Notes: generated by a model from the letters alone, not told the origin. A DNA stretch of 64,000 bases from Gammaproteobacteria bacterium (GCA_003695765.1 RFHQ01000054.1:1-64000), one strand, 5' to 3'; counted from the stretch's first letter, positions 19,115 to 42,036 are shown. Numbers and translations: made by a program.

Positions 19115-20044
19115 TCAGGCGGGGAAGAAGTCGATCGGCTTGGTCGTCGTGACCGGCGCCACATCCTTCTCGGCGAAGCGGAACAGCTTCACCCGCTGGA
19201 CGAGCTTGCGCTGCAGTTCCTCGTCGTCCAGCTCGCTGGAAACGATCTCGCAAGCCGATACCAGGCCCGAGGGCTCGATGGTCAGGCGCAGCACCAGCTT
19301 GCCCTGCAGCGTCGGGTCGCGGCGCAGCGCGCGGTTGTACAGCGCGTAGATCGCGCCCTTGTTGCGGTCGAAGACCATCTCGATTTCTTCGCGGCTGCGC
19401 GCCGGCCGTTCCGAACTGCCGCTGCGCCGCGCGCTGGCCTGCGAGGCCAGCCCGGCTACGGTGCTGGACACCGCGGTGCTCGCATGCCCGGCCAGTCCCG
19501 CGCCGCCGGTATCCCGGCTCAGCTTCGCCGTGTTGATGCCGCCGCTGGCCCGCCCGGCCCGCGAGGTGATCAGTGATCGCTCGCTGCGCCGGGCCGCACC
19601 CGCCGCGCCGGCCAGCTGCCGACGGTTCGCGACCGCGGCGATCGCCTGATTGTCGCGCAATTCCGCGAGCTCATCGGCGAAGGGCAGCAACCCGGCCATG
19701 GCCGCTTTCTTGCGCGCCTTTTCGACCCGGTCCACCGGCGGCTTCGGCTCCGGCTGCTTCTTCACGACTTTCTCGGGCTTCGGCTGCTCGGGTTTCGGCT
19801 GTTCCGGTTCCTGCCGGACCACCGGCGGCGGTGGCGGCTTCGGTTTGTCGAGCAGCAGCTTCGCGAAGCGGGGCGGGACCTCGACCACCTCGGCCTCGTC
19901 CGGTGCCGGCACCGGCAACAGGCTCAGCACCACGGTCAGCAGCAGGACGCCGATCGCGACGCGCTTGAGGATCTCGCGGAAGTGGTCCTCCTGCTCGAGG
20001 CCGAGATCCCAGGGCAGCGCGTAGTTGCGGTAGAACGCGATCAC
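19115..20044 (-). CDS. AgmX/PglI C-terminal-domain / TonB-like energy transducer
   Basis: N-terminal TM, Pro-rich PPPPPVVRQEPEQPKPEQPKPEK, C-terminal region RNKGAIYALYNRALRRDPTLQGKLVLRLTIEPSGLVSACEIVSSELDD. Start inferred as GTG. Confidence 0.85.
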   Translation of the reverse strand: MIAFYRNYALPWDLGLEQEDHFREILKRVAIGVLLLTVVLSLLPVPAPDEAEVVEVPPRFAKLLLDKPKPPPPPVVRQEPEQPKPEQPKPEKVVKKQPEPKPPVDRVEKARKKAAMAGLLPFADELAELRDNQAIAAVANRRQLAGAAGAARRSERSLITSRAGRASGGINTAKLSRDTGGAGLAGHASTAVSSTVAGLASQASARRSGSSERPARSREEIEMVFDRNKGAIYALYNRALRRDPTLQGKLVLRLTIEPSGLVSACEIVSSELDDEELQRKLVQRVKLFRFAEKDVAPVTTTKPIDFFPA

Positions 20045-20048
20045 CAGC

Positions 20049-20588
20049 CTAACCCTGCGGCTCGCCCGCGGCGGCGTCGGCGGCCGCCTGCCGCAGCGGC
20101 CGTTGCAGCACGGCCAGCGAAATGCGCCCATAGTCGGCCGCCGTGCAGGTCGCCATCACGCGCTTCAGCAGCCGATACGGCAAGGCCCGATCGCCCATGA
20201 TGGTCACTTCGCGCGCCGCGACGTCCGCCATCGCCTGCTTGCGCAGCACGCGGTCGGTCTGCTGCGTGAGCGCATCGCGCAGCGCCGGAATCACGATCGC
20301 CTCGCTGTCCATGACCTCGGCGACACTGGCCACCGGCTGCCCCTGCACGAGGATCTGCTCGCCGGTCACCAGCACGACGACGTTCTCACGCGCCTTTTCC
20401 TCGGCCACCGATTCCGGCAGCTGGACGTCCCGGGCATTCGGCAGCACTTCGACGTCGGTGGAATTCACCAGCAGGAAGAACACCAGGATCGTGAAGATAT
20501 CCATCAGCGACACCAGGTTCAGCGCCACCTGTTTGCGGCCCCGGGCATTGCGCTTGGCCATGCGCTTGGCTCGTTTGGACATCTGCAT
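20049..20588 (-). CDS. ExbD/TolR biopolymer transport protein
   Basis: LNLVSLMDIFTILVFFLLVNS typical ExbD N-terminal TM with conserved Asp. Confidence 0.92.
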   Translation of the reverse strand: MQMSKRAKRMAKRNARGRKQVALNLVSLMDIFTILVFFLLVNSTDVEVLPNARDVQLPESVAEEKARENVVVLVTGEQILVQGQPVASVAEVMDSEAIVIPALRDALTQQTDRVLRKQAMADVAAREVTIMGDRALPYRLLKRVMATCTAADYGRISLAVLQRPLRQAAADAAAGEPQG

Positions 20589-20591
20589 GCT

Positions 20592-21113
20592 TCAGCTCCG
20601 CTTCAGCACCGGCGCGTCGCCGATGGAGATCTCCGGAAACAGTTCGGCCCGCACCGGCTCGCCGGCCGGTTGCCCGGCCCCGTCCAGCGGTTGCTCCTCG
20701 AACAGGCGCACGGCGTCCATCACCTGCACCAGCACGTCGTAGGGCACCTCCGGCTCCAGCAGGATGGTCGCGTCCAGCTTGTCCGGGAAGCTGGCCTTCA
20801 CCCGCTTCAGGTACTCGGTCAGGCCCGCGTAGTCGTATTCGCCATCCCGCTTCGGCAATCGCGTCAGCAGGCCACCGTTGCGCTCGCCGATCTCCAGCCG
20901 GTCGGCCCGCACGATGACTTCCAGCTGCATCTCCGGCGGCGCATCCGCGAGCTCGTCCCCGGAGGAAGGCAGGTTGAGCTCGAGAATCGCCAGCCGCGAG
21001 AACACCGCGGTGATCAGCAGGAACGGCACCAGGATCACCATCAGGTTCATGAAAGCGGTGATGTCCAGGTCCGCCGTGTCGCGGCGGCGATGGCGGCGGC
21101 GGTAGGCGTTCAT
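20592..21113 (-). CDS. ExbD/TolR family protein (second copy)
   Basis: DLDITAFMNLMVILVPFLLITAVF; ATG overlaps the stop of the upstream MotA/TolQ gene. Confidence 0.9.
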   Translation of the reverse strand: MNAYRRRHRRRDTADLDITAFMNLMVILVPFLLITAVFSRLAILELNLPSSGDELADAPPEMQLEVIVRADRLEIGERNGGLLTRLPKRDGEYDYAGLTEYLKRVKASFPDKLDATILLEPEVPYDVLVQVMDAVRLFEEQPLDGAGQPAGEPVRAELFPEISIGDAPVLKRS

Positions 21114-21772
21114 GCGCCGGCGGCAGCGGTCTTCTGCTCCTTGCGGCGCTCGTCGATCGCGTTCAGGAACTTGACCGAGGCCATCTCCAGGCTGTCGACG
21201 ATTTCCGTCGTCTTGCTCTGCAGCAGCGTGTGCACGAGCAGCAGCGGGATCGCGACCATCAGGCCGAAGGCCGTGGTGTTCATGGCCACCGAGATGCTCG
21301 CCGACAGCATGTCGGCTTTTTCGGCCGGGTTCGCCGCGGCGACCGCGGTGAAGGCCCGGATCAACCCAATGATCGTGCCGAGCAGGCCGAGCAGCGTGGC
21401 CACGTTGGCAAAGGTCGCGAGGTAATGCGTACGCTTCTCCAGCCGCGGCACGACCTCCATCAGGCTTTCCTCCATCGCCTTCTCGATGTCGTCGCGGCGC
21501 GCCGCCGTCTTGATGCGATGCAGGCCGTAGGTCAGGATCGTGGCGATCGCAGCTTTCGACTTCGATGTCACGTTGACCGCTTCCTGGAACTTGCCTGCCT
21601 GAATGAACGGCGTGACCTTGTTCCACAGCATGCGGTTGCTGACACTGGTCTTGCTGAGGTAGATCCAGCGCTCGACCGCGATCGCCAGCCCGAGGGCCAG
21701 CACGATCACGATCGGGTACATGAAGACCCCGCCGTTCTGAAAGAATCCGACGATTCCGGAATACACATCCAT
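21110..21772 (-). CDS. MotA/TolQ/ExbB proton channel family protein
   Basis: LATFANVATLLGLLGTIIGLIRAF...SISVAMNTTAFGLMVAIPLLLVH. Confidence 0.93.
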   Translation of the reverse strand: MDVYSGIVGFFQNGGVFMYPIVIVLALGLAIAVERWIYLSKTSVSNRMLWNKVTPFIQAGKFQEAVNVTSKSKAAIATILTYGLHRIKTAARRDDIEKAMEESLMEVVPRLEKRTHYLATFANVATLLGLLGTIIGLIRAFTAVAAANPAEKADMLSASISVAMNTTAFGLMVAIPLLLVHTLLQSKTTEIVDSLEMASVKFLNAIDERRKEQKTAAAGA

Positions 21773-21869: not shown

Positions 21870-22271
21870 TCACTCCTTGCCCCCATACAATTGATCGAAA
21901 TAGGCCGTCTGTCTGCGGAACACTTCACGGTCCACGGGAGCCAGCGCCTCGTCGATCAGGCTGTTGACCGGCTTCCCCAGCAGATCGCCCAGCGCCGGAT
22001 CCTTCCAAGGCACGATGTTCAGCACCCGCGGCAGCTCGCGGTTGCCACGTATCGAGGTCGTCTCCAGGTCCAGTTCGTCCTGAGCAACCGCCACCGCCGG
22101 CGCCCGCGGCTCGGCGGCGTCCGGCGCGGGCCGCCGGTCCGCGGCCGGCGCGCCGGCATCGACCACTGCGGCGGCCTCGGCCGACGGCGGACCCGCCTGC
22201 TCGGCCGGTCCCGGCTCCGCTGCAGCCAGCGCGCCGCCCAGCAGACAGAGCAGCCACAGCCCGCGCATCAT
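21870..22271 (-). CDS. Hypothetical exported protein
   Basis: Signal peptide MMRGLWLLCLLGGALAAA and a conserved-looking C-terminus; overlaps upstream TPR gene. Confidence 0.7.
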   Translation of the reverse strand: MMRGLWLLCLLGGALAAAEPGPAEQAGPPSAEAAAVVDAGAPAADRRPAPDAAEPRAPAVAVAQDELDLETTSIRGNRELPRVLNIVPWKDPALGDLLGKPVNSLIDEALAPVDREVFRRQTAYFDQLYGGKE

Positions 22272-22909
22272 TCCGGCCCCGCCTGCGCCGTGCGCGCGGT
22301 CAGGCCCAGCCGCCGCCGCAGGTCGGCGATCCATTTACCGACCTCCTCGGCGCTGCGCTCGTCCCCGGCCAGCGCGATGTATTGTTCGTATTGCTCGACG
22401 GCCAGCGCATGCCGCTGCTGGTAGAGGTCGTATAGCACGCCGAGGTTGTAGTGTGCATAGGCGTAGCCGGGGTCGCTGTCCAGCGCCGCCCGGTAGGCCT
22501 GCTCCGCCTCGTCGAAACGGCCTGCCTGCCGGTGCAGGATGCCGAGCTGGTTCCAGGCCGGCGCGCAGTGTTGGCAGACCGCCAGCGCCTGCTGCAGGTA
22601 GTCCTGCGCGGCCGCCGCATCGCCGTCGCCCGCTGCGAGGATCGCGAGGTTCACGTACGGACCGGCATAGTCGGGATGGCGCCGGCTCAAGCCGAGCAGC
22701 AGCTCGCGGGCACGCTCGCCATCGCCGGCATCCATGTAGCCCAGCGCGCGCGCGAAATCGTCCACCGCGGCCTGGGGGTAGTCGAAACCTGGCTCGCCAC
22801 TGCCCTGCACTTGCGGCTGGCGCGCCGGGCCGGCGGCGCAGGCGGCGAGCAGCGCTACCGCCAGCAGCAGCGCCAACCGGCGGCCGGATTCAATCGATGA
22901 TCGCAACAA
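22268..22909 (-). CDS. TPR-repeat lipoprotein
   Basis: Lipobox LLAAC; TPR repeats (AYRAALDSDPGYAYAHYNLGVLYDLY). Confidence 0.88.
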   Translation of the reverse strand: MLRSSIESGRRLALLLAVALLAACAAGPARQPQVQGSGEPGFDYPQAAVDDFARALGYMDAGDGERARELLLGLSRRHPDYAGPYVNLAILAAGDGDAAAAQDYLQQALAVCQHCAPAWNQLGILHRQAGRFDEAEQAYRAALDSDPGYAYAHYNLGVLYDLYQQRHALAVEQYEQYIALAGDERSAEEVGKWIADLRRRLGLTARTAQAGPE

Positions 22910-25688
22910 GGTTCTCGCTCCTCTCCTGGCGCGCGTAACGCGCGGGCATCAGTTCCGCGAGCCGCGCGAAACTGCGTCGCACCCAGTCGTCGTAGACACC
23001 GTCGGCCGCGCGCGCGGCATTGGCGGCGAACAGTTCGATCGCCTGCTCCTCCAGCGGGAAGGCCTGCTCCTCGAGCAGAATGTCGTACTGTTCCAGTTCC
23101 TCCGGCGACAGTTCGGGTGGCCGTTCGGAATCCATCAGGTCCTGCGCAAGGCGGTAGTACAGCTCGGCGATCTCGAAGTTCGCCGCGGTCGTGACTTCGG
23201 CGACGCCGTAATCGGCAGCCTTGGCATAGGCGGCCAGCGCCAGTTCCATGCGGCTCTTCTTGCGCTTCAGGCTCGCCTTCAGCGGGATCACCAGCGGCGC
23301 CGCGACGAACGCGTCCCGCAGCGCCGCTGCCAGTTCCAGGCTGGCGCGGGCCGCGAGGGTCCGGCTGCGCGGGCTGCGGGCCTCCCCGGCCGCCGCGTCG
23401 GCAGCGACGATCTCCTCCAGCCAATGCCGGCGCCCGGTCGGGTCGCCCAGCGTCAGCGCCAGATCGGCGAGTTTCTGGCGCGCCTCCAGCGCCTCGCCAA
23501 AGGGCTCGGGGAAGCGCTGCAGCAGCGTCTCGTAGACCCGTTGCTCGTCCCGCGGGCGGCCGCTGGCCGCGTACAGCCGTGCCGCTTCCCACAAGGCCTC
23601 GCGCCGGAGTCCCGGCTCCGCGCCGGCCAGCTCGGCGACGCGCTCGAACTCCGCCGCGGCGGCCTCGGACTGGCCGGCCGCGCGGCGCACGACGGCGAGC
23701 TTCTGCGTCACTTCGCCGGCCAACGCATGCGCCGGGAACTGCCGCCGGAATTTCTCGAGCACCGCGGCCGCGTCTTCCCAGCGCTCGGCATTGATCAGCA
23801 ATGCCGCGGCATCGTAAATCGCAAGCGGCACCACGTCCGTCCCCGGGGCCGCGTCCGCGACGCGCAGGAAGTGGCCGACGGCCGTGTCGACCTCGCCGGC
23901 CGCGCGTGCCGCTTCCGCCTGCTTGTAGACCGACGCGGCGATGCGCTCGGCCAGTTCGCCGGCTTCGTCCGGGTCGCCGCCCGGCATGGCCTGCAAGCGC
24001 CGGTAGGCCTGCTCGGCCTCGGCATAGCGCTGCAGATCGAAGCGGGCGTGGGCCAGGACGCGCAAGGCGACGCGTTCCAGTTCCGGCGCCGCCGGCGGCT
24101 GGGCGCTGACCACGAGCTCGGCGATCTTGGCGGCGCGCTCCAGTTCACCGGCCGCGAACAGTTCCTCGGCCACCTTGGTGCGCACCGCGGCCGCCTGCGG
24201 ATGGGCCGGAAAGCTGTCGGCGAAGCGCAGGGCCTCGGCCACGCTGCGCTCGCGCCAGGCGGCCAGGGACTCGCCGTCCAGCGAGGCGGCGTGAGCGCGC
24301 GCGGCCAGTACCGCGGCATAGGCGGCCTCGGCGGCACGCTCATGCGGCCCGTAGGCGTAGGCGGCGTCGAGGAACTGCGCGGTCGCCTCGGCATACTGGC
24401 CCAGCTCGTTCAGGATCTCGGCCAGCAGAAAACTGCGTTGCGCGGAGTCCGGATCCTGCGGGAAATAGGCCAGGTAGCGTCGATACCAGCCGGCGGCGCG
24501 CGCGTAGGCCTCGCGATCTCCGGAAGACTGCGCCAGCGCGTGATCGTAGGCGGCCAGATCGCTGAGGCTCTGTTTCAGTTCCGCGACCACGGCCGGGTAG
24601 TCGGCCGTTTCGCGATCCTGCCAGAAGGGCGAGTCGAAGCCGAACAGCCGGACGTAGTCGCGGCGGGCCTCGAGCACCAGGCTCGGGAAACGGCCGAGCG
24701 TATAGGCCTCGATGACCCGCAACTGCAGACGCGGGGCCGCCGGGTGGGTCGGCGCGGTACGCACGAAGGCGGCATAGGTCTCGGCCGCATCTTGATAGCG
24801 CTCCTTGTCCAGATACAGATCGCCCAGCCCGGCGTACAACAGATCCGCATAGGCCAGATCCGGGCGCCGCTGCCACAACGCATTCAGGCTGGCCGGGCCG
24901 TCCATGTAGGAAAAGCTGATCGCCAGCACGCGGAAGCTGTCGTCGACCAGTTCGCGGTCGGGGCGGCTCATCGCGGCCAGCGCCGCAGCCGGGCCCTCCG
25001 CCGTCGCCAGCCGGCCGTCCAATACGGCCAGGAAGGAATCGAGGCTCTCCTCGTGCAGGCCCTGCTTGAACAGCGACCAGCCATGCTTGTAGAGCGCCTG
25101 TTCGCGAAAGGCCGAGCGCTCGCCGAGCGCGATCACGGCGGCATAGGCCGCCTGCGCTTCGCGGTAGCGCCGCGCCATGAACAACATCTCGCCCCGCCGG
25201 AACTGCGCCTCGTCATAGTAGCGGCTGTCCGGATAACGGCTGACGAGTTCGGTCAGCCGCGCCAGCGCGGCATCGCTGTCGCCGGTCAGTTCGCGCGCCC
25301 GCGCCAGCTGATACAGCACGACATCGCGGTCGGCGAACTCGCCCCTGGTGGCCAGCAGCTGCTGGTACAACTCGATCGCATCGGCATAGAAACGGGCATC
25401 CGCGAGCCCTTCCATGTCGGCGGCCTCGCCGGCCGACAGGCTGAGGTCGGCCAGCCGGCGCATGGCCTCGGCGCGAAGCGCCGGGTGCTCCGCAGCCAGA
25501 TTCAGGAAGGCCCGGTACTGCTCCCGCGCCAGGCGTTCTCCGTCGGCCAGCGACAGTTCCCGCCGCAGCTCGACCGGGCGCGGCTGCAGGTCGCCGATCG
25601 TCGCCTCGGCATCGTCGGCGCCACGCTGGCCGAAGGGCCAGAGCCCGCCGGCCAGCGTCAGCGACAGGCAGCCCAGCAGGATCTTCAC
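22890..25688 (-). CDS. Large TPR-repeat periplasmic protein (Agl/Glt-type)
   Basis: 932 aa, multiple TPR units (YPDSRYYDEAQFRRGEMLF, DKERYQDAAETYAAFV), signal peptide. Confidence 0.88.
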   Translation of the reverse strand: MKILLGCLSLTLAGGLWPFGQRGADDAEATIGDLQPRPVELRRELSLADGERLAREQYRAFLNLAAEHPALRAEAMRRLADLSLSAGEAADMEGLADARFYADAIELYQQLLATRGEFADRDVVLYQLARARELTGDSDAALARLTELVSRYPDSRYYDEAQFRRGEMLFMARRYREAQAAYAAVIALGERSAFREQALYKHGWSLFKQGLHEESLDSFLAVLDGRLATAEGPAAALAAMSRPDRELVDDSFRVLAISFSYMDGPASLNALWQRRPDLAYADLLYAGLGDLYLDKERYQDAAETYAAFVRTAPTHPAAPRLQLRVIEAYTLGRFPSLVLEARRDYVRLFGFDSPFWQDRETADYPAVVAELKQSLSDLAAYDHALAQSSGDREAYARAAGWYRRYLAYFPQDPDSAQRSFLLAEILNELGQYAEATAQFLDAAYAYGPHERAAEAAYAAVLAARAHAASLDGESLAAWRERSVAEALRFADSFPAHPQAAAVRTKVAEELFAAGELERAAKIAELVVSAQPPAAPELERVALRVLAHARFDLQRYAEAEQAYRRLQAMPGGDPDEAGELAERIAASVYKQAEAARAAGEVDTAVGHFLRVADAAPGTDVVPLAIYDAAALLINAERWEDAAAVLEKFRRQFPAHALAGEVTQKLAVVRRAAGQSEAAAAEFERVAELAGAEPGLRREALWEAARLYAASGRPRDEQRVYETLLQRFPEPFGEALEARQKLADLALTLGDPTGRRHWLEEIVAADAAAGEARSPRSRTLAARASLELAAALRDAFVAAPLVIPLKASLKRKKSRMELALAAYAKAADYGVAEVTTAANFEIAELYYRLAQDLMDSERPPELSPEELEQYDILLEEQAFPLEEQAIELFAANAARAADGVYDDWVRRSFARLAELMPARYARQERSENLVAIID

Positions 25689-25704: not shown

Positions 25705-27597
25705 TCACGGCAGCGGCTCCCGGTTCGCGGCCGCGGCGTTCGCCCGATCGTAGATCGTCGCCAGCGCGAAACGCGCCTGCACGCGGTAGGTGGCCAGCCG
25801 CGAGCGTTGCGCGTCGAGCTCGGCGATCGCGAGCCGCTGCAGCGACTGCTGTTCGCCGTCCAGCGCGGCCAGCACCCGCCCCTGCAGGCGCTCCAGGCGC
25901 GGTGCCAGGCGCAGCAGCCGCTCCCGGTAGGCCGCGATCTCCTGCGGCACCGACTGCCTGGCGCTGTTCAGAGCCGCCGCCGAGCGTTCGGCCGCGGCCA
26001 GCACCTCGTCCAGGCCGGCCAGCGCCCGGCGCTCGCGGTAGAGGCGGTAGCGAAACTCGCGTTCGAGGCGCCATTGCAGCAGGCCCTTCAGCAGGCGCTG
26101 GCGGTCGCGCGCCGCGGCGGCCGCCGGCGTCGACCAGGCCGGCGTTTGCGCCACTGCCTCGAGCCGCTGCCACTGATCGAGTTCCTCGGCAGTCGCCAGC
26201 GCGGCGGGGTCCTGCCCGGTCGCGATCTCGGCCAGCCGGGCGGCCAGCGCATTGCGGCGGGCGCGCAACGCCCCGAGATCCACGCTGCCCAGTTCGCCGG
26301 CGACACGCGGCAGGCGCTCGCGGTACGCCTGCTCGCGCGTGTCGAGGATGTCGGCGAAGGCATCCAGCCGCTGCGCCCAGTCGCGCAGGTAGCCGCCCAG
26401 CGCCAGCAGGTCGCGCACGTTCCGCAAACCGTCCTGGAACTCGTGGTTCGCGATCAGGTGGTACAGGTAACGTGAGTCCTCGCTGGACGGCAGCTCGGCC
26501 AACTGCCAATACCAGCGCCCGATCTCCGGGTCGTCCTGGCGCAACAGGGCCGGCACCAGCGCGCCCTGGCGGGCGCGCTCGACCGCCGCGTCCAGCCGGG
26601 CGATCTCGGCATCGAAGGCCGCGATCGCGCTCAGGTAGTGATCGGCCGCGGAGCCGTGGGCTTCGAGCCGGCCGAAGGCGTATGGAATCGCGAGCAGCGA
26701 TTCCTGCACGGCGCTGTCCAGCAGGTCGCGGTCACGCAATGCGAGCCACGGCACCAGCGCCTGCCGGTAATCGGCGTTCAAGGCGTCGGCCCAGCCCGCG
26801 CCGAGCAACGCCTTGTTGGAGAACGGGCCGTTCACCCGCACCCGCGACAGCGCCGCGCGCGCGGCCGCAGGCTGCTGCGCCTGCAGGTAGGCGTAGCCGA
26901 GCGCGAGATTGGCCTTGTCGCGCAGATCGCGCAGCTCCGCGTTGCGGCTCTGCAGTTGCCCGACGCGCTCGAGCTGCTCGGCGCCGGCGGCCAGGTCGCC
27001 GTCGCGCACGAAGGCCACGCCGAGGTTCAGCCGCGCATAGGCCGTCCAGTCGGCCGGGCCGTGCCAGTCGCCGAGCAGCGCTGCCGCCTCCGCGTAGCGC
27101 GCTTGCTGCATCAGGCATTGCGCGAGCAACAGGCGATGCTCGGCCGCGAGCCGCTCCGGCAAGGCGCCCCCGACGCGCCGCAGGGCCGCTTCCGCGCTGG
27201 CATAGCGGCCGCGCTGGTAACGCACTTTGCCGAGGTAGAACCAGGCGCGGTCGCGCACGGCCGGGTCGGCCGACTCGTCCAGCAAGCGGGAGAAGATCTC
27301 TCCGGCCTGCCGGTGCTGCCCATAGGCGAGGTAGAGGCCGCCCAGCAGCAGCTCCGACTCGTGGTCATGATGGCTCAGTCGCCCGGCATGGCGCGCGGCC
27401 AGCAGGTGCGTGAGCGCGGTGAAGTCGTCCTGTTGGTAGAAATGGAACAGGACTTCGCCGTAGTGCAGATCGCGGATCTCGGTGCCCGGGAGATCCCGCG
27501 CGGCCAGCGGCCGGGCGGCGAGCATCAGGGCTGCGGCCGCCGCGCCCAGCACGGCGGCCGCAGCCCGTCCGCAGCGGTCACCCGCGCCCGGCAGCAT
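25705..27597 (-). CDS. TPR-repeat protein
   Basis: 630 aa with TPR repeats and coiled-coil C-terminus. Confidence 0.85.
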   Translation of the reverse strand: MLPGAGDRCGRAAAAVLGAAAAALMLAARPLAARDLPGTEIRDLHYGEVLFHFYQQDDFTALTHLLAARHAGRLSHHDHESELLLGGLYLAYGQHRQAGEIFSRLLDESADPAVRDRAWFYLGKVRYQRGRYASAEAALRRVGGALPERLAAEHRLLLAQCLMQQARYAEAAALLGDWHGPADWTAYARLNLGVAFVRDGDLAAGAEQLERVGQLQSRNAELRDLRDKANLALGYAYLQAQQPAAARAALSRVRVNGPFSNKALLGAGWADALNADYRQALVPWLALRDRDLLDSAVQESLLAIPYAFGRLEAHGSAADHYLSAIAAFDAEIARLDAAVERARQGALVPALLRQDDPEIGRWYWQLAELPSSEDSRYLYHLIANHEFQDGLRNVRDLLALGGYLRDWAQRLDAFADILDTREQAYRERLPRVAGELGSVDLGALRARRNALAARLAEIATGQDPAALATAEELDQWQRLEAVAQTPAWSTPAAAAARDRQRLLKGLLQWRLEREFRYRLYRERRALAGLDEVLAAAERSAAALNSARQSVPQEIAAYRERLLRLAPRLERLQGRVLAALDGEQQSLQRLAIAELDAQRSRLATYRVQARFALATIYDRANAAAANREPLP

Positions 27598-27600: not shown

Positions 27601-28122
27601 TTACTCCCACTCCCGGACCACAAATTCGGGCTGTTGCTTGCTCTCTCGATCGCTGATCCGCAACTCGACGAACTTGGCCCCGATCCGCTTGTCGAATTCG
27701 AGGCTGGCACCGCGCCGGTATTCTCGACCGTGCGGGCCGACACCGGTGAAGATTGCGACCAGCTCGTGCTCTCCGGTCTTGATGTTGCCGAGGTATAGCT
27801 GGTGCACGCCGCCCCGGTGCAGCGCCTCGACTTCCCGTTTCGTGTACAGATAGTTGCTCACCGGCTTGCCGTCGAGCTTCAGCTGCACCGAGTCCAGTGC
27901 GAAGAATTCGCCGACGTCCAGGGACAGGAACACGGCGATCTGCGTGTTGGCCGGGAACAGCAGTTCCTCTTCGAGCAGGAACAGCTCCCGGTTCAGGTCG
28001 AGGATTTCGGCTTTCAGGTCCTGCAGCTGCTCGTCCATGACGGCATCGGCGCTCCAAGCCGGGGCCGCCAGCCATCCGGCCATGGCGATGCCGGCGAATG
28101 CCAGGCGGTAGTTCGCGTTCAT
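27601..28122 (-). CDS. Hypothetical exported protein in motor cluster
   Basis: Signal peptide (AGWLAAPAWSA) and beta-rich domain FFALDSVQLKLDGKPVSNYLYTKREVEALHRGGVHQLYLGNIKTGEHELVA. Confidence 0.75.
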   Translation of the reverse strand: MNANYRLAFAGIAMAGWLAAPAWSADAVMDEQLQDLKAEILDLNRELFLLEEELLFPANTQIAVFLSLDVGEFFALDSVQLKLDGKPVSNYLYTKREVEALHRGGVHQLYLGNIKTGEHELVAIFTGVGPHGREYRRGASLEFDKRIGAKFVELRISDRESKQQPEFVVREWE

Positions 28123-28652
28123 TGGTCTCCTGTCCCGGCCGTCAGCCAGGCCTCCTCGGCAAACAAGCCGTCGATCGCCGCCCTGTAGCGGGCGGCGTCC
28201 CCGTCGCGATAGCCCTCGAAAGCCGCGCGGCGCCGGCCGGAGGGATCGATCAACACCAGCAAGGGCAGCCTCTGCGGGTCGTAGCGCCGCACGACATCCT
28301 GCTGCGCGTCGAGCAGCACCGGCAGCGCCAGCCCGGCGGCTGCCGCCTGCGCCTTGTCCCGCCGACGATCCAGGCTCACGCTGAGCACCTGCAGCGGACG
28401 GGCCGCGTAGCGTTGCTGCAGCTGCGCGAGTGCGGCGAGCTGCTCGCGGCAAGCGCCGCACCAGCTCGCCCAGAAGCCGAGCAGCACGATCTGGCCGCGG
28501 AATTCGCTGAGGCGGAGGTTGTCTCCGGCCAGGGTTTTGAGCGCGAAGTCCGGCACGGCCTGCGGCGGCTGCAGATCGCCGGCCATCGCCGGAGGCAGCC
28601 CCAGCGCCAGGCCGGCGCAGGCCGCGATGAGTCGCTCTGTGATCCAGCGCAT
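28119..28652 (-). CDS. TlpA/AhpC-type thiol-disulfide oxidoreductase
   Basis: LLGFWASWCGACREQL (CxxC active site), signal peptide. Confidence 0.9.
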   Translation of the reverse strand: MRWITERLIAACAGLALGLPPAMAGDLQPPQAVPDFALKTLAGDNLRLSEFRGQIVLLGFWASWCGACREQLAALAQLQQRYAARPLQVLSVSLDRRRDKAQAAAAGLALPVLLDAQQDVVRRYDPQRLPLLVLIDPSGRRRAAFEGYRDGDAARYRAAIDGLFAEEAWLTAGTGDQ

Positions 28653-28888
28653 CTGCCGTCCCTGACTGCCGCGCGCAAGCGGGAGACGCAGCCCGCGCCG
28701 GGCTGGCAGCGCCGCCGTCATGGCCGCCTCGCAGCAGCGGTAGACCGGTCGCTTTGCGTCCCCGACTTTCGGCGGGTTTGCCCATGCCGGCCGCTTCCGG
28801 CGCCCGGCAGGGCTATGGTCTCAGGGGGCTCGGCCGATTCCTGTGATCGCGGTCACGGATCACCGGCGGCTTGACAGAACGCAGCGCG

Positions 28889-29858: not shown

Positions 29859-30185
29859 CTACTGGCTGGCCGAACTGGGTTCCACGCGCACGCCCTGTCT
29901 GGCGAGCTCGTCGAGCAGCCGCTGCGCATTCGGGTTGCCGGCCTGCGCCAGATCCGCAGCGCCGACGGCCAGCGAGCGCAGTTGCGCGCGGATCTTTTTC
30001 GCCTCCTCGAGTGCGCTGGCCTGCTGGGCCTCCAGGCTCGCCAGATCGTCACGTTCCTGCAACAGGCTGTAGAGCTGCAGCCCCGCCAGCGTCACGATGC
30101 TCCAGCTCAGCAGCAGCAGCGGCAGGAAGACGGTGAAGCCAGTCCGCCCGGCGTCGCTGCCGGCCGCGGTTCGCGGCTCGTTCAT
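29859..30185 (-). CDS. Small single-TM coiled-coil protein
   Basis: 108 aa; FTVFLPLLLLSWSIVTLAGLQLY; overlaps the upstream gene by 4 nt. Confidence 0.7.
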   Translation of the reverse strand: MNEPRTAAGSDAGRTGFTVFLPLLLLSWSIVTLAGLQLYSLLQERDDLASLEAQQASALEEAKKIRAQLRSLAVGAADLAQAGNPNAQRLLDELARQGVRVEPSSASQ

Positions 30186-31776: not shown

Positions 31777-31891
31777 GGTCGAAGCTCATGATCGGGTCGG
31801 CCAGCCGCTCGCGCTCGTAGGGTTTCACCCAGGGCTCGACCGAGCAGGCGCCGAGCGCAAGCGACAGCAGCAGCAGGACGATGCAGCGCAT
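31676..31891 (-). CDS. DUF4266 domain-containing lipoprotein
   Basis: Lipobox LGAC; VKPYERERLADPIMSFDRDPVSSAYTHHVYEAREGARGASGSAGGGCGCN. Confidence 0.88.
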   Translation of the reverse strand: MRCIVLLLLSLALGACSVEPWVKPYERERLADPIMSFDRDPVSSAYTHHVYEAREGARGASGSAGGGCGCN

Positions 31892-31894: not shown

Positions 31895-32398
31895 TCAGGA
31901 CCTCTCGCGGACCAGCAAGCGGATCTGGTCCTGGTATGTGTTCTCGTAGCCCGGCTGGTAGCCTTGGTGCAGGAAACGCAGCCGGCCCTGGCGATCCACC
32001 AGCACGGTGCTCGGCATGGCCGAGACGTCGTAGAGCTGGCTGACACGGTTTTCCGGATCGAACAGCACCGGGAAGGAGACCGGCGTCTCGCGCAGAAAGG
32101 CCTCGGCGTCGACATCGCCCTCCTCGACATTGACGCCGAGCAGCGTGAAGCCCAGCGACTGATAGCGCTGGTAGAGTTGCTCCAGCAAGGGCATCTCCTT
32201 GCGGCAGGGCCCGCACCAGGTGGCCCAGAAATTGATCAGCACGACCTGGCCGCGAAAATCGCTGAGCGAAACCGGCTGGCCGTTGCGGTCGCGCAGCGTG
32301 AAGTCCGGCGCCGGGCCGGACAGCGCTTCGCCGGCCGTCGCTGGCGCGGCCAGCAGCCAGAGGCCGGCCGCCACGAGCATCCATCGTTGTTGCAGCAT
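31895..32398 (-). CDS. TlpA family thiol-disulfide oxidoreductase
   Basis: VVLINFWATWCGPCRKEMP; signal peptide. Confidence 0.93.
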   Translation of the reverse strand: MLQQRWMLVAAGLWLLAAPATAGEALSGPAPDFTLRDRNGQPVSLSDFRGQVVLINFWATWCGPCRKEMPLLEQLYQRYQSLGFTLLGVNVEEGDVDAEAFLRETPVSFPVLFDPENRVSQLYDVSAMPSTVLVDRQGRLRFLHQGYQPGYENTYQDQIRLLVRERS

Positions 32399-32416: not shown

Positions 32417-33070
32417 TCAGAAAAAGAAGCTCATGCCCAGATTGAACTCGATGTTGTGCGTGGTCTTCTTCTTGCCCAACAGGTCCGAGTCGAACAGGTG
32501 GTCACGCACATTGAAATTCACCGTCAACCAGTCGGTCGCCAGCACGCGGTAGCCGGCGCCGAAGACCACGGTAAAGAAGTCGTCGCCCGCGAACTCGGTA
32601 TTGCCGACGCCGCCGAGCAGATACAGAGCGCTGTTGAAAGCGAAATTGCGGCCGAGGAACACCTCGCCGGGCAGGATGTTGATGCCCAGCGACAGATCGT
32701 AGTACTTGTACTTGCGTTCATCCTTCGTCAGCAGCGGCGCGCCGCCACTGAGGATCTCGAAGCTGGTCGGTTCGGTGTCCGTCTGCCCGTAACTGCCCTC
32801 GACGAACAGCCGCTCGCTGACGTGATAGGCCAGGCGGGCGCCCCAGGCGGTACTCGAGCCGAAATCCTCGACGCTCTTGAAGCCGACGAAGGCGCCCAGC
32901 TCGAAATTCTCCGTGTCGATCTTCGGCTCCTCCACGTCGCGCCGCGCCACCTGCGGGTCGATGACCGGTATCTGCGCGTCGGCTGAATTGTCGACGACCT
33001 GACTGCGGCTGCAGGCCGTGGACAGCAGCGCGACCAGGATCAGAAAAAGAAAGAAAAACCGGCTTTCCAT
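32417..33070 (-). CDS. Outer membrane beta-barrel protein (OMP_myx_plus-like)
   Basis: Signal/lipobox LLSTAC; barrel pattern ELGAFVGFKSVEDFGSS...NLGMSFFF. Confidence 0.8.
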   Translation of the reverse strand: MESRFFFLFLILVALLSTACSRSQVVDNSADAQIPVIDPQVARRDVEEPKIDTENFELGAFVGFKSVEDFGSSTAWGARLAYHVSERLFVEGSYGQTDTEPTSFEILSGGAPLLTKDERKYKYYDLSLGINILPGEVFLGRNFAFNSALYLLGGVGNTEFAGDDFFTVVFGAGYRVLATDWLTVNFNVRDHLFDSDLLGKKKTTHNIEFNLGMSFFF

Positions 33071-33780
33071 TCTCCAACTTCCTCGTTGTCGTTCCTGCTG
33101 GTGAACACCTTGTAGGTCTTGTATTCCGCGCGCAGCAGGAAGCGGCGGCCAAGGTGGGCGCGCAGGCCGAGGCCGGCATGCGCTTCCTGATCGGTGCGGT
33201 CCGGCGTCGAGACCAGGCTGGATTTCGGATCGACATGGATCACGCCGGCCCCCAGCGTCAGGAACGGTGACAGCCACCAGTCGGGAAAGGGGGTATGCAC
33301 GATGTTCGCGTTCAGCATCCAGCCGTTGGAGAAATCGCCGGTCAGCAGCGAGCCCCAGAGTTCGGCCGACAGATTCGGCGTGAACAGCCAGGAGCCGTAG
33401 AGCGAGATCACATTGGCGCCATCGAAATCGCCGAGCAGGACTCCGGCCTCGCGGCGGCGGCTGCCGAAGTCGGCGCGGCCGGGAGCGTCGATCTTTGCCG
33501 GTTGGCCGTCGGGCTCCAGCGTGCGCGCCATCTGCCGGGCGCTGACCCAGCCGCTGATCCCGCGGTCGTTGCGCACCTTGAACCAGTCGGTGCGGCGCTT
33601 CAGCACCTCGATCTGCTCACCACGCTCGACGACGTGGAACACGGGATAGCCGCGGCCCGGCCCGGTATGCAGCTCGATGTAGGGATCGACGACCACCACC
33701 TCGTAGTGGCGCTTCTTCGCCTGCACCGACGGCGCGGCCAGCACGGCGAATGCGAAGGCGATGATCACGAGCCTGCCCAT
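33040..33780 (-). CDS. SH3-domain + outer membrane beta-barrel protein
   Basis: SH3-like VVVVDPYIELHTGPGRGYPVFHVVERGEQIEVLKRRTDWFKVRNDRGISGWV followed by barrel ending AGFSFFF. Confidence 0.82.
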   Translation of the reverse strand: MGRLVIIAFAFAVLAAPSVQAKKRHYEVVVVDPYIELHTGPGRGYPVFHVVERGEQIEVLKRRTDWFKVRNDRGISGWVSARQMARTLEPDGQPAKIDAPGRADFGSRRREAGVLLGDFDGANVISLYGSWLFTPNLSAELWGSLLTGDFSNGWMLNANIVHTPFPDWWLSPFLTLGAGVIHVDPKSSLVSTPDRTDQEAHAGLGLRAHLGRRFLLRAEYKTYKVFTSRNDNEEVGEWKAGFSFFF

Positions 33781-36634: not shown

Positions 36635-37831
36635 ATGCATCGACTGCGCCTGTACCTGGCCGCGCGACTGTTGTTCGCGGGACTGCTCTGCGCGATCGCC
36701 AGTGGCGCGGCGGCCGGCGTCCGCGATCAGGCGAAGCGCATGCACGACCGGCTCGCCGGCGTGCCGCCGTCGCAGACCGTGCTGGACAGCATGGAAGCGC
36801 TGCTGCAGGGCGGAGACGACATCGGCGCGGCCTACCTGGCCATGCAGAACAGCGCCTTCTACAAAGTCACGCTGAAGAACTTCGCCGCGCCATGGACCAA
36901 TCGCGACGCCGACGTCTTCGTGCCGCTGAACGACTACACGGCGACCGTGATCGGCCTCGTGCGGGACGACGACCAGCCCGGCTACATTCCCTTCAACGAG
37001 CTGTTGTCGGCCGACGTGATCTACGTCGGCGCGGCCAGCCTGGGCCTGCCGCCCTACTCGCCGGCCAGCAACGCCCATTATGAGGCGATGGAACGGCAGG
37101 ACGTGGACCTCGGCGACCCGGCGCAGCTGGTTCGCGACAGCCAGAGCCTGCGCAACGGCGTGCCGCTGACCGCGGTCGCGGGCGTGCTGACGACGCGGGC
37201 CGCTGCCCGGGCCTTCTTCGTCGCCGGCACCAACCGGGCGATGCTGCGCTTCACGCTGGTCAACCACCTGTGCAATGACCTCGAACAGTTGCACGACACT
37301 TCGCGGCCGCCGGACCGGATCCGCCAGGACGTGTCGCGCAGCCCGGGCGGGGACAGCCGCGTGTTCCTGAACAATTGCATAGGCTGCCACTCGGGCATGG
37401 ATCCGCTGGCGCAGGCCTATGCCTACCACGACTACGACGACGCGGCCGGCCGGATGATCTACACGCCCGGTGCCGTGCGGCCCAAGTACTTCAACAACGC
37501 GGATACCTTCAAGTTCGGCTATGTCACGCCGGACGATCACTGGGACAACTACTGGCGCGACGGTCCCAACCGCTGGGTCGGCTGGGACTTCGGCCCGGCT
37601 TCGCCCGGCGGCAGCGGCAATGGCGCCGCCTCCCTCGGCCGGGAACTGGCCAACAGCGAGGCCTTTGCCCGCTGCCAGGTGAAGAAAGTGTTCCGCGCGG
37701 TCTGCCTGCGCGATCCGGCCGACAACAGCGACCTGGCGCAGATCGACAGCATGACCGTCGATTTCCGTGACGGCGGCTACCGCCTGAAACAGGTATTCGC
37801 CGAGGCGGCGAGCTACTGCAAGGGAGACTGA
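36635..37831 (+). CDS. Exported heme c-containing protein
   Basis: Signal peptide; NNCIGCHSGMDPLAQAYAYHDYDD single CxxCH site. Confidence 0.8.
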   Translation: MHRLRLYLAARLLFAGLLCAIASGAAAGVRDQAKRMHDRLAGVPPSQTVLDSMEALLQGGDDIGAAYLAMQNSAFYKVTLKNFAAPWTNRDADVFVPLNDYTATVIGLVRDDDQPGYIPFNELLSADVIYVGAASLGLPPYSPASNAHYEAMERQDVDLGDPAQLVRDSQSLRNGVPLTAVAGVLTTRAAARAFFVAGTNRAMLRFTLVNHLCNDLEQLHDTSRPPDRIRQDVSRSPGGDSRVFLNNCIGCHSGMDPLAQAYAYHDYDDAAGRMIYTPGAVRPKYFNNADTFKFGYVTPDDHWDNYWRDGPNRWVGWDFGPASPGGSGNGAASLGRELANSEAFARCQVKKVFRAVCLRDPADNSDLAQIDSMTVDFRDGGYRLKQVFAEAASYCKGD

Positions 37832-37834
37832 GCG

Positions 37835-40363
37835 ATGGCCGACCGCCTGCGCAGCTTACGCACCCGCGCCGCCCGCCTGCCCGGCTTGCCGGTGGCGGTG
37901 ATCGTGCTCAGCAGCCTGCTCGCGGGCTGCGGCGGCGGCGCCAGCACCGAGACCCTGCCGCAGTCCGCGCCGGGCACCCAGCAGCAGACCTACAGCGGGC
38001 CGGCGCCGGCCACGGCCGACGTTCAGGCCTTCATGGTCGAACTCTGGACCAACCTGCAGCCGGCCGGTCCGGCCGGCTGCGGCAACTGCCATTCGCAAGC
38101 CGGCGGCCAGGCGCCGATGTTCGCTCGCAGCGACGATGTGAACCTGGCCTACCAGGCCGCCAACCCGCTGGCCGACCGCGGCCAGCCGGAACTGTCGCGG
38201 CTGGTGACCAAGGTCGGCGGCGGTCACAACTGCTGGCTCGGCAGCGACCAGGCCTGTGCCGACATCATGGCCACCTGGATCAGCAACTGGGTCGGCGGCA
38301 GCGGCAGCGGCGGCCGGCAGATCCTGCTGACGCCGCCGCCGTTGATGGATCCGGGCCAGAGCAAGAACTTCCCGCCCCCGGTGCCGGCGGCTTTCGGGCA
38401 GCTGCATGCGCTGCTGACGCAGTATTGCTCGGCCTGCCACAGTAATGGCGCCGGCACGCCGCAGTCGCCGTTCTTCGCTGATGCCGATCCAGCGGTCGCC
38501 TATGAGGCCGCCAAACCGAAGATCGACCTGGACGACCCGGCGAACTCGCGCTTCGTGCTGCGTCTCGGCCAGGAGTTCCACAACTGCTGGAGCGACTGCG
38601 CCGCGAATGCGGCGACCATGCAGGCTGCGATTCAGGCCTTCGCCGACAGCATCCTGCCGACCTCGGTGGACCCGGCGCTGGTGATCAGCAAGGCGCTGCG
38701 TCTGATCGACGGCACGGTCGCGTCCGGCGGCAATCGCTTCGAGAACAACCAGATCGCGCTGTGGGAGTTCAAGGCGGGCCAGGGCAGCACGGCCTTCGAT
38801 ACCAGCGGGGTCAGCCCGGCGATGGACCTGACACTGTCCGGCACCGTCAACTGGGTCGGGGGCTGGGGGATCGAAATCGTCAACGGCAAGGCACAGGCAT
38901 CGACGACGACCAGCCGCAAGCTGTACGACCGCATCACGCTGACCGGCGAGTACTCGATCGAGGCCTGGGTCGCCCCGGCCAACGTGGTCCAGGAGGACAC
39001 GCGCATCGTCAGCTACTCGGCCGGCACACTGGCGCGGAACTTCAACCTCGGCCAGACGCAGTACAGCTATGACTTCTTCAATCGCAGCGGCAGCACCGAC
39101 GGCAACGGCGCCCCGGCACTGAGCACCGCCGCCGCGGACGAGGATCTGCAGGCCACGCTGCAGCACGTGGTCGCGACTTATGACCCCGTGAATGGCCGGC
39201 GCATCTATGTCAACGGCGTGTTCACGGACGACGTCGACCCGGTCCCGGGCGACACGCTCGCCGACTGGGACGAGACCTTCGCATTCGTGCTCGGTAACGA
39301 GGTCTCGGGCGACCGCCAGTGGCAGGGCGTGATCCGCCTGGTCGCGATCCACGACCGGGCGCTGAGCGAGGCGCAGATCCAGCAGAACTACGCTGTCGGC
39401 GTCGGTGAAAAATTCTTCCTGCTGTTCTTCATCGGCGACCTGATCAACGTGCCGGATGCCTATATCCTGTTCGAGGTCAGTCAGTTCGACAACTACAGCT
39501 ATCTGTTCAACGCGCCGGTGTTCCTGAGCCTGGACCCGGCGGCCAGCGTCAGCGGCGTGCGCCTGGCCGGGATGCGCATCGGCCTGAACGGCCAGCTGCT
39601 GAACGTCGGTCAGGCCTACGCCAACCTGGATCTGACCCTGAACGACGCGACCGGACAGCCCTTGTCGCCGATCGGCACCGTCGTGCCGCTGCAAAAGGGA
39701 CCCGACGCCGACGAATTCTTCCTGAGCTTCGACGAGCTTGGTGGCAACTTCGGCCCGGTGACACCGCCGGCCAACCTGACGCCGCCGCCCGAATTGCTGG
39801 CGGGCCCGCAGCCGGACATCGGCCTGCGCAGCTTTGACGAGATCAACGCGACGATGTCGGCCGTGACCAGCGTGCCGGTCACCGAGGTGCAGGCGACCTA
39901 CGAGCTGGTGCGCCAGCAACTGCCTGCCAGCGAGAATGCCGGCAGCTTCTCGTCGGCCCAGGAGATCGGCATCGCGCAGCTGGCCATTGCCTACTGCAAT
40001 GCGCTGATCGAGAACGATCCGGCGCGGCGCGACGCCTATTTCCCGAACTTCGTCCTGCCGCCGACGGGGGTGTCGCGCTTCACGCTGATCCCGAGCGCCG
40101 CGTTCGCCGGCCCGGCCCGTGACGACCTGATCAATCCGCTGGTCGACCGGATCATGGGCGTGGGGCTCATCGGTTCGCAGCCGGCCTTCGCCGACGTGGT
40201 CGACGAACTGGGCTACGCCGCAGCCGGTGGGAATCCGCCGCGGCCCGCGAACCTGATCGACCGGCTGATCGCATCCGACGACAGTTCCCCGCAGCGCACC
40301 GAGGATATCGCCAAGGCGGTCTGCTCGGCGCTGCTGGGCAGCGGCGTGGCGCTGGTCCAGTGA
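37835..40363 (+). CDS. Lipoprotein with two heme c motifs and LamG-like jelly-roll domain
   Basis: LLAGCGGG lipobox; CGNCHS, CSACHS; LamG pattern YSIEAWVAPAN...HVVATYDPVNGRRIYVNGVFTDD. Confidence 0.82.
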   Translation: MADRLRSLRTRAARLPGLPVAVIVLSSLLAGCGGGASTETLPQSAPGTQQQTYSGPAPATADVQAFMVELWTNLQPAGPAGCGNCHSQAGGQAPMFARSDDVNLAYQAANPLADRGQPELSRLVTKVGGGHNCWLGSDQACADIMATWISNWVGGSGSGGRQILLTPPPLMDPGQSKNFPPPVPAAFGQLHALLTQYCSACHSNGAGTPQSPFFADADPAVAYEAAKPKIDLDDPANSRFVLRLGQEFHNCWSDCAANAATMQAAIQAFADSILPTSVDPALVISKALRLIDGTVASGGNRFENNQIALWEFKAGQGSTAFDTSGVSPAMDLTLSGTVNWVGGWGIEIVNGKAQASTTTSRKLYDRITLTGEYSIEAWVAPANVVQEDTRIVSYSAGTLARNFNLGQTQYSYDFFNRSGSTDGNGAPALSTAAADEDLQATLQHVVATYDPVNGRRIYVNGVFTDDVDPVPGDTLADWDETFAFVLGNEVSGDRQWQGVIRLVAIHDRALSEAQIQQNYAVGVGEKFFLLFFIGDLINVPDAYILFEVSQFDNYSYLFNAPVFLSLDPAASVSGVRLAGMRIGLNGQLLNVGQAYANLDLTLNDATGQPLSPIGTVVPLQKGPDADEFFLSFDELGGNFGPVTPPANLTPPPELLAGPQPDIGLRSFDEINATMSAVTSVPVTEVQATYELVRQQLPASENAGSFSSAQEIGIAQLAIAYCNALIENDPARRDAYFPNFVLPPTGVSRFTLIPSAAFAGPARDDLINPLVDRIMGVGLIGSQPAFADVVDELGYAAAGGNPPRPANLIDRLIASDDSSPQRTEDIAKAVCSALLGSGVALVQ

Positions 40364-40413
40364 GCGGTCGGCAGCGGCAAGCAGCAAGCGGCGAGACCGC
40401 AAGGTAAGCAGCA

Positions 40414-42036
40414 ATGGCCAGACGCAAGCAGCGCAATTATTTCGAACCCCAGCGGCACCCGGATCACCCGCGGCCGATCACGCGGCGGCAGCTGATCGCC
40501 CAAGGCTTCCTGACCGGCGCGGCGACGGTGACCGCTGGCGGTATCTTCAGCCTGTTCGCGAATCCGCGCGCCGCGATGGCCGCGCTGAGCCCGGACCTGC
40601 AAGCGATCATCGATAGCGGCCGCTGCCCGCTGATCAACCCGAATGCCTTCAACCCGGTGCCGTTCATCTGCTTCGACCTGGCCGGTGGCGCCAACATGGC
40701 AGGCTCCAACGTGCTCGTCGGCGGTCAGGGCGGCCAGCTGGATTTCCTGACCACGGCGGGCTACGGCAAACTCGGGCTGCCGGGCGACATGGTGCCCGGT
40801 GTCGCCGAGGCCGCGCCCACGGCCACCAGCAATGGCGACCACACGGACACTAGCCTGGGACTGGGCTTCCATAGCGACAGCGCCTTCCTCCGCGGCATGC
40901 AGGCCAGCCTGAGCCCCGGCACCGCGGCCAACGTCAACGGCGCCGTGATCCCGGCGCGTTCCGAAAACGACACCAGCAACAATCCGCACAACCCGATGTA
41001 CGGCATCGCGCGCGCCGGCGGCGAAGGCGAGCTGCTGACGCTGATCGGTTCGCGCGCCAGCGAGTCGGGCGGCAATTCGATGGACCCGGTCGGCCTGATC
41101 GACCCGGAACTGCGCGCGACCTGGCGGCCGACCAAGGTGGACCGCCCCTCCGATGTCACCGGACTGGTCGACACCGGCGATCTCATCGGCCTGCTCGGCC
41201 AGAACGACGCGGTGGCCGTGATGGAGTCCATCGAGCGGCTCAGCGCGAAGAAGATGGATGTCGTCGATCCGAAGCTCGGCAGCATCACGGCCAACGACGT
41301 GCTGCGCGACCTGGTCAAGTGCGGCTACCTGAAGGCCGCCGACGTCGCCGACCGTTTCGGCGACCAGAGCGTCTTCGACGTGCTGGCCGACACGAACATC
41401 GTCGGCCCGACCGGCATCTTCTCGAGCACGGAATTCAACGCCGACCGCGAGTTCCAGAAAACCGCGTCGATCATGAAGCTGGTGTTGAACGGCTACGCCG
41501 GGGCCGGCTGCATCACGATGGGCGGCTACGACTACCATGGTGGACGGCGCGCCGAAGGCGAGGTCAAGGATTTCCGCGCCGGCCGCTGCATGGGCGCCTG
41601 CCTGGAATACGCAGCCCGTGTTGGCTCGCCGCTGATGATGTACGTGTTCAGCGACGGCTCGCTGTCGAGCAACGGCGTGATCGACGAGAGCGTCGACGGC
41701 CGCGGCAAGGGCGAGTGGACCAGCGACAACCAGTCGACGGCGGCCTCCTTCTTCCTGGTCTACAATCCCGGCGGGCGCCCGATCCTGCGCGGCGTCACCC
41801 CCGATGAGCAGGCGCGGCACCAGCAGATCGGCTGGTTCCGACCGGAGGGCTCGGTGGAAACCGCCGCCTCGCCGGCCGCGAATAACGTCAACCTGCTGGT
41901 CGAGACCGTCGTACTGAACTACCTGGCACTGCGACACGCCGACCCGTTCACGGTGTTCCAGAACCTGTTCCCGAACAACGGTCTCGGCAGCATCCAGCTG
42001 CAGCAGAGCCTGACGGCCTTTCAGAACATCGTCTGA
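40414..42036 (+). CDS. DUF1501-like Tat-exported protein
   Basis: ITRRQLIAQGFLTGAATVTAGGIF (Tat-like); FICFDLAGGANMAGSNV, GGYDYHGG pattern of DUF1501/sulfatase-like proteins. Confidence 0.75.
   Translation: MARRKQRNYFEPQRHPDHPRPITRRQLIAQGFLTGAATVTAGGIFSLFANPRAAMAALSPDLQAIIDSGRCPLINPNAFNPVPFICFDLAGGANMAGSNVLVGGQGGQLDFLTTAGYGKLGLPGDMVPGVAEAAPTATSNGDHTDTSLGLGFHSDSAFLRGMQASLSPGTAANVNGAVIPARSENDTSNNPHNPMYGIARAGGEGELLTLIGSRASESGGNSMDPVGLIDPELRATWRPTKVDRPSDVTGLVDTGDLIGLLGQNDAVAVMESIERLSAKKMDVVDPKLGSITANDVLRDLVKCGYLKAADVADRFGDQSVFDVLADTNIVGPTGIFSSTEFNADREFQKTASIMKLVLNGYAGAGCITMGGYDYHGGRRAEGEVKDFRAGRCMGACLEYAARVGSPLMMYVFSDGSLSSNGVIDESVDGRGKGEWTSDNQSTAASFFLVYNPGGRPILRGVTPDEQARHQQIGWFRPEGSVETAASPAANNVNLLVETVVLNYLALRHADPFTVFQNLFPNNGLGSIQLQQSLTAFQNIV

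Follow-up and report, generated by a model that had tools for sequence, protein, structure and literature searches.

The window analysed here is a stretch of 64,000 nucleotides from Gammaproteobacteria bacterium (GCA_003695765.1 RFHQ01000054.1:1-64000), corresponding to contig 45 of the 222 contigs of a 2.57 Mb genome that is 92% complete. Between positions 19115 and 42036 it contains a block of about 22 genes, in which genes for flavin, thiol and haem proteins are joined to those of an Agl/Glt-type motor. Since a wide variety of gammaproteobacteria keep its genes together or split them alike, the locus is very probably one functional system, an uncharacterised machine rather than a set of chance neighbours.

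Genes were called by a frame scan of the window, together with codon-position GC and inspection of ribosome sites, and family labels were checked by hidden Markov model (HMM) searches of Pfam and NCBIfam (Table 1). Nineteen coding sequences run on the minus strand, from 36405 to 19115, and three genes run divergently on the plus strand, from 36635 to 42036. Neighbouring genes mostly overlap or are separated by 2-20 bp; the HzsA-like frame, for instance, stops at 33784, and the SH3/barrel gene starts at 33780. Wider junctions are found before tm1 (about 50 bp), before aglR (about 97 bp) and between apbE and the second tlpA (about 170-230 bp). The same arrangement had been described in an earlier interpretation, made from the sequence alone (the sequence-only reading), and is borne out by the gene calls. 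Among the family labels tested, HZS_alpha, SH3_3, OMP_myx_plus, AhpC-TSA/Redoxin (twice), DUF4266, DUF3570, ApbE, MotA_ExbB, ExbD (twice), AgmX/PglI and Laminin_G_3 were confirmed. The label DUF1501 was not: the gene at 40414-42036 matched nothing in Pfam or NCBIfam at E<=0.01, and encodes instead a protein with a twin-arginine translocation (Tat) signal. A simple scan of the window for promoters and terminators gave nothing above shuffles.

Table 1. Features of the locus and the adjoining methyltransferase gene; FMN, flavin mononucleotide.
Feature	Position	Strand	Matches and remarks
HzsA-like di-haem beta-propeller lipoprotein, 873 aa	33784..36405	-	PF18582 7.9e-16, PD40
SH3omp, SH3 domain and outer-membrane beta-barrel	33040..33780	-	PF08239 3.4e-11, OMP_b-brl 1.2e-4; C-terminal ...FFF
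OMPmyx, OMP_myx_plus outer-membrane barrel	32417..33070	-	TIGR04565 3.4e-48
tlpA1, TlpA/ResA-type thiol-disulfide protein 1, CGPC	31895..32398	-	PF00578 2.6e-31
DUF4266 lipoprotein, near-invariant C-terminal GGGCGCN (CXC)	31676..31891	-	PF14086 4.1e-24
DUF3570 16-stranded outer-membrane barrel, likely FMN carrier	30559..31689	-	PF12094 3.2e-47; start uncertain, frame open to 31776
Twin flavinylation motif DTVSSAS-I-DVLSTAS, predicted outward DUF3570 loop	31447..31491	-	
tm1, small membrane protein, genus-level only	30182..30508	-	homologues in 7 loci only
tm2, small membrane protein, genus-level only	29859..30185	-	homologues in 7 loci only
ApbE FAD:protein FMN transferase	28889..29851	-	PF02424 2e-80; start uncertain
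tlpA2, TlpA-like thiol-disulfide protein 2	28119..28721	-	PF00578 1.8e-21
h173, secreted coiled-coil and beta-sandwich protein	27601..28122	-	no Pfam/NCBIfam family
Periplasmic TPR protein, GltC-like by position	25705..27597	-	TPR_19/ANAPC3
Periplasmic TPR protein, GltD/AgmU-like by position	22890..25688	-	TPR_6 3.3e-15
TPR lipoprotein, GltE-like	22268..22909	-	NF033758 GltE 8.1e-12, under its cut-off
h154, exported protein, C-terminal half conserved	21870..22271	-	no family; kept in motor clusters; start uncertain
AglR-like MotA/TolQ/ExbB proton channel	21110..21772	-	PF01618 5e-30
ExbD/TolR-like 1 (AglQ/S position)	20592..21107	-	PF02472 6.6e-14
ExbD/TolR-like 2 (AglQ/S position)	20049..20588	-	PF02472 3.9e-16
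GltG/AgmX-type TonB-like transducer	19115..20047	-	NF033768 2.3e-18, 66 bits vs cut-off 40
c36, secreted mono-haem c-type protein, one CxxCH	36635..37831	+	PF07624 (DUF1585) sub-threshold only
lamG, di-haem lipoprotein with LamG domain (Laminin_G_3)	37835..40363	+	PF13385 3.5e-20
d1501, Tat-exported protein, no named family	40414..42036	+	twin-arginine motif conserved
Trm112-like (zinc ribbon)/class I methyltransferase	42098..43525	+	PF07942/PF13649

Window proteins were aligned with 60 regions fetched from relatives. At class level, 276 gammaproteobacterial genomes, each at least 90% complete, were scanned with profiles of h173 and of the HzsA-like protein. The set of named loci comprises at least 585 candidate loci matching in genome contigs, and layouts were read from the HMM annotation of all loci. 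Loci are given L numbers below and genomes G numbers; since 80 named loci are partly the same contigs as loci of the G-numbered genomes, counts pooling the two contain duplicates.

The protein h173 (64% mean column identity over 16 homologues) is a marker of the gammaproteobacterial core complex of Agl/Glt motors. It is present in 40 of the 41 genomes that match the HzsA-like profile strongly, versus 20 of the 235 others (Fisher p 5.8e-32). The two genes lie on one contig in 30 of the 40 co-occurring genomes, at a median distance of 6.2 kb and a maximum of 24 kb. Where the haem half was found with no motor in view, h173 is encoded elsewhere in the genome in all 20 species searched whole; in one of these, G336 (locus L171), the two are linked at a longer range, about 13 kb. 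DUF3570 was found in 41 of the 60 relatives and the AgmX/PglI C-terminal domain in 51, in 44 of them over the cut-off. Carriers among the named loci include Woeseiaceae, Chromatiales, Steroidobacteraceae, Candidatus Thiodiazotropha, Sedimenticola and Lamellibrachia endosymbionts, and Thiogranum and Woeseia are further genera represented. A sample of 299 genomes from the phylum gave strong matches in Gammaproteobacteria and in no other class.

The only HzsA-positive genome lacking a motor, G089, is an apparent exception: its locus (L125, 8438-10327) has HzsA, c36, LamG and d1501, with hzsA split into two frames. The near-identical tails of these frames suggest two copies of a small inserted element. 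G138, a candidate motor genome without HzsA, was dismissed, as its motor contig stops at OMPmyx. In G335 (L163, L231), another of the 20 species, the locus is apparently broken inside lamG, its parts lying about 120 kb apart on one contig, which appears to reflect either a chromosomal rearrangement or an assembly fault.

Within the family of the source organism, the gene order is d1501-lamG-c36, divergent from hzsA-SH3omp-OMPmyx-tlpA1-duf4266-duf3570-apbE-tlpA2-h173-gltC-gltD-gltE-h154-aglR-exbD-exbD-gltG, some genomes carrying cargo between DUF3570 and apbE. In 44 loci the motor shares an arm with DUF3570, in 29 with c36-lamG-d1501. A third layout, in which the locus occupies two places, is seen in several more families of the order: DUF4266/DUF3570 and the haem genes are in one place, apbE and the motor in the other. 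In loci with room to see the genes, c36, lamG and d1501 adjoin hzsA in 72-73 of 77, and SH3omp, OMPmyx, DUF4266 and DUF3570 in 101-103 of 105. A tree of concatenated h173 and GltC sets 82 redox-type motors apart from 7 standalone ones, with a local support of 0.87. Along this tree there are 8 changes of layout or standalone state, versus 28 in shuffles, so linkage has survived several rearrangements. As a side observation, L200 (15.9-18.1 kb) has a second SH3omp/OMPmyx pair directly before h173, besides the one after hzsA. Woeseiaceae loci such as L196 and L209 have, as assigned by eye, pairs of TldD/E-like genes with Tat-type signals downstream of DUF3570, and LemA/DUF2207-like genes beside it.

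These distributions bear on the simplest alternative, that the Agl/Glt core and the DUF3570 redox genes are two independent envelope systems, neighbours by history and sharing no function. Standalone motors and standalone, full-length DUF3570-ApbE loci both occur, and in one clade the haem trio has a promoter of its own; yet co-occurrence is near-perfect even where the halves are unlinked, and linkage is retained through layout changes. Moreover, apbE accompanies the motor in 16 of the 21 motor loci found away from the haem half, and DUF3570 remains beside the haem genes. As ApbE is known to act on the DUF3570 family (PMC8238504), this distribution forms a link in trans between the two halves, and independence is improbable. 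The one-machine proposal of the sequence-only reading thus gains strength from the search for neighbourhood conservation it had called for: the gene union is kept, linked or split alike, in two linked layouts, and redox and motor genes are not usually apart in related genomes, so the outcome which that reading had named as its refutation did not occur.

The DUF4266 protein ends in GGGCGCN in 118 of 122 homologues. One CxxCH site is present in all 114 c36 proteins, two in all 104 LamG proteins and two in 114 of 130 HzsA-like proteins, with a maximum of three in any haem protein of the locus. Of 126 DUF3570 homologues, 121 carry the first motif, D-x-x-[ST]-x-A-[ST]. In 115 loci an intact FMN motif occurs together with DUF4266, and in two, G046 and G110, neither is present; the one remaining case is a contig that starts at DUF3570. 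In G046 (L057, G046:C12:18619-19938), DUF4266 and DUF3570 form a single fusion protein with DUF4266 in front, the CGCN tail is lost, the acceptor motifs SSAS/STAS have become NDDS/TLAG, and a profile search of the genome found no HzsA-like protein. G110 and G230 retain an HzsA-like protein with three CxxCH and have no DUF4266, tlpA1 or FMN motif; c36 is missing genome-wide from all three. Barrels and motor remain in these two lineages, where acceptors, CXC tail and c36 vanish. G046 and G110/G230 are thus two natural removals that mark out the redox unit; two events are few.

The folding of mature DUF3570 was predicted by AlphaFold with 65 homologues. The model is a 16-stranded barrel with a mean predicted local distance difference test score (pLDDT) of 93, and its best solved matches by Foldseek are outer-membrane barrels, among them OmpG, AlgE and, with a lower rank, Mtr complex chain B. 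S52 and S60, the putative acceptors, are predicted to lie in the loop that joins strands 3 and 4, at the end of the barrel that has the three long loops, and thus outward, both termini being periplasmic. A linear seven-residue motif suffices for ApbE modification (PMC12052999), hence flavinylation of DUF3570 may take place before the barrel folds. In the fusion found in G046, DUF4266 precedes the barrel at its periplasmic N-terminus, so that the CXC tail of DUF4266 could extend into the lumen. For h173, AlphaFold gave a helix and a beta-sandwich (pLDDT 75), and Foldseek returned non-specific matches, with template modelling scores of about 0.3.

Both results weigh on a second alternative, in which the redox genes act in biogenesis: thiols or haem-attachment cysteines of outer-membrane and haem proteins would be kept reduced by TlpA, DUF4266 and flavinylated DUF3570, with no outward electron transfer. 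The locus encodes two TlpA/ResA-type proteins, of families used in cytochrome c maturation, beside five c-haem sites, and the loss of CXC and FMN sites coincides with that of c36. A maturation role fits poorly, however, with the HzsA-like proteins of G110/G230, which keep three CxxCH in the absence of DUF4266, tlpA1 and FMN motif, or with Woeseiaceae, where no tlpA1 lies beside DUF4266; for a periplasmic process, FMN sites predicted to face outward on the barrel would also be oddly placed. This alternative is therefore considered unlikely.

A number of findings speak against a single machine with an outer-membrane electron relay. Seven standalone motors (L116, L124, L127-L131) run from h173 to gltG with no redox genes, hence the motor does not require these everywhere. 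The first DUF3570 motif is SSAS in 94 of the 121 homologues and SGAS in 13, and the window protein, with SSAS and STAS, departs from a strict double [S/T]GA[S/T] pattern, keeping acceptor serine and alanine but not the glycine; in another ApbE target, a change of Gly to Ala halved flavinylation (PMC12052999). The co-loss is seen in two lineages alone, and the orientation of the DUF3570 loop is derived from strand order and topology rules, not from coordinates. Finally, a near-consensus sigma-54-like site, CTGGCACAGCAATTGC, lies upstream of c36 in about 20 Woeseiaceae-type loci of one clade (among them L155, L159, L168, L190 and L206-L210). The promoter has the form CTGGCACAGCA(A/C)TTGCTT and precedes the c36-lamG-d1501 operon at a distance of about 130-480 bp from c36; the window does not have it. 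When a regulatory motif shared by haem trio and motor was sought in split genomes, this site was not found at the motor, and simple co-regulation is therefore weakened in that clade.

Each module has been described separately. The Agl/Glt 'core complex' described in gammaproteobacteria and Myxococcus (Luciano 2011, PMC3169522) shares with the locus a cluster of AglR/TolQ-like, two ExbD-like and TonB-like GltG proteins, the last with an AgmX/PglI domain, as well as TPR proteins including a GltE-like lipoprotein. The TolQ-like channel, both ExbD-like proteins and the GltG transducer are recognised by their profiles (Table 1), and by gene content the standalone motors appear to be the same complex. 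The gammaproteobacterial core is reported to have one extra gene absent from Myxococcus (PMC3169522), for which h173 or h154 is a likely candidate. The locus differs from it in being joined to the flavin/thiol/haem module and three barrels; PMC3169522 mentions no thioredoxin. A gliding or surface-translocation machine, with LamG and haem proteins as adhesins and redox chemistry as a regulator, would account for the core parts common to the Myxococcus machine and for the OMP_myx_plus and LamG proteins. However, GltG and GltE score far under the gliding equivalog cut-offs (39.6 of 650 bits and 44.8 of 225 bits), and the core alone has been argued to be unlikely to drive gammaproteobacterial motility (PMC3169522), so that gliding has little probability.

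Clusters of ApbE, DUF3570, thioredoxin and DUF4266 have also been described (Meheust 2021, PMC8238504), and flavinylation of DUF3570 by ApbE was shown by experiment in Chlorobium luteolum (PMC8238504). The same four families, all over Pfam cut-offs, are found in the window, with the DUF4266 CXC and paired DUF3570 flavinylation motifs. Here, however, DsbD is lacking from the locus, motifs are mostly SSAS/xTAS and not SGAS, and the Agl/Glt motor, HzsA-like, LamG and c-haem proteins are added; gliding, TolQ, ExbB and beta-barrels are not mentioned in that paper (PMC8238504). MtrCAB porin-cytochrome conduits are similar in combining an electron carrier with an outer-membrane barrel. Unlike them, the locus has flavin and CXC instead of decahaem cytochromes, and a motor driven by the proton motive force; with one to three haem sites per protein, no multihaem cytochrome to be placed inside the barrel was found.

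In hydrazine synthase alpha (5c2v), the sole PDB match of the HzsA-like protein, propeller, middle domain and C-terminal CxxCH sites follow one another as they do here, and its HZS_alpha domain and C-terminal di-haem region can be aligned; the protein of the window differs in being a lipoprotein of a motor-linked locus. A hydrazine or related nitrogen-redox enzyme system is nevertheless very improbable. The NF052339 score is 51 bits versus an 800-bit equivalog cut-off, the propeller similarity is weak, and the profile position aligned to the zinc cysteine of HzsA is not a cysteine. Hydrazine synthase function was rejected on equivalog score and alignment. No HzsB or HzsC is found among the locus genes, the rest of the genome not having been searched for them.

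Among neighbouring genes, the methyltransferase of Table 1 is kept in 27 loci, directly 3' of d1501 in 22 of these. A radical SAM gene (18200-19102, plus strand) adjoins gltG and is a conserved neighbour within the family; an ArsM-like methyltransferase gene (15690-16730, minus strand) is also next to gltG, and the two possibly belong to an arsenic or small-molecule pathway. A PQQ (pyrroloquinoline quinone)-dependent dehydrogenase-like gene (43590-45629), near the haem trio, shows no sign of belonging to the conserved locus. Farther on, positions 49355-53377 encode a 1340-aa protein with an unusual combination of AAA_35, proprotein convertase P-domain and WD40 repeats.

The explanation proposed is a trans-envelope system of motor core, barrels and redox chain, in which the motor works on an outer-membrane complex; taken as a whole, its chances of being right or wrong are judged about equal. 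It is based on the gene union, the layout changes with linkage kept, the co-loss of CXC, FMN acceptors and c36, and the predicted barrel topology. The proton-driven core would consist of AglR, two ExbD, the TonB-like GltG, the TPR proteins GltC/D/E, h154 and h173, and the outer-membrane part of the barrels SH3-OMP, OMP_myx_plus and DUF3570. In the redox chain, electrons would pass from TlpA to the DUF4266 CXC tail, to FMN on DUF3570, bound by ApbE to two serines of the outward loop, and to the HzsA-like and LamG c-haem lipoproteins, c36 and the Tat protein. They would thus be exchanged between periplasm and cell surface via the flavinylated barrel; that a flavin/haem relay at the surface is attached to the motor is proposed tentatively. 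Through GltG and the TPR proteins, the motor may work mechanically on the outer-membrane complex, assembling, opening or moving it. More doubtful is the idea that a proton-driven Agl/Glt-type motor powers the flavinylated barrel and the surface haem lipoproteins, its mechanical work driving or gating electron exchange with the outside.

The statement of the sequence-only reading that this is not a described system holds for the whole, as no description uniting both modules with HzsA-like, LamG and c-haem proteins was found in the literature, and does not hold for the Agl/Glt core and the ApbE-DUF3570 module taken singly. Two questions raised in print meet at this locus: the role of the Agl/Glt core in gammaproteobacteria not known to glide (PMC3169522), and the purpose of DUF3570 electron transfer (PMC8238504). 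If the locus is one system, each question becomes testable through the other. With at least 585 candidate loci, it is common in sediment lineages, Woeseiaceae and Chromatiales among them, and in sulphur-oxidising animal symbionts, and, if the explanation is true, an outer-membrane conduit with flavin held at the outward side of a barrel would differ in kind from the haem-wire type.

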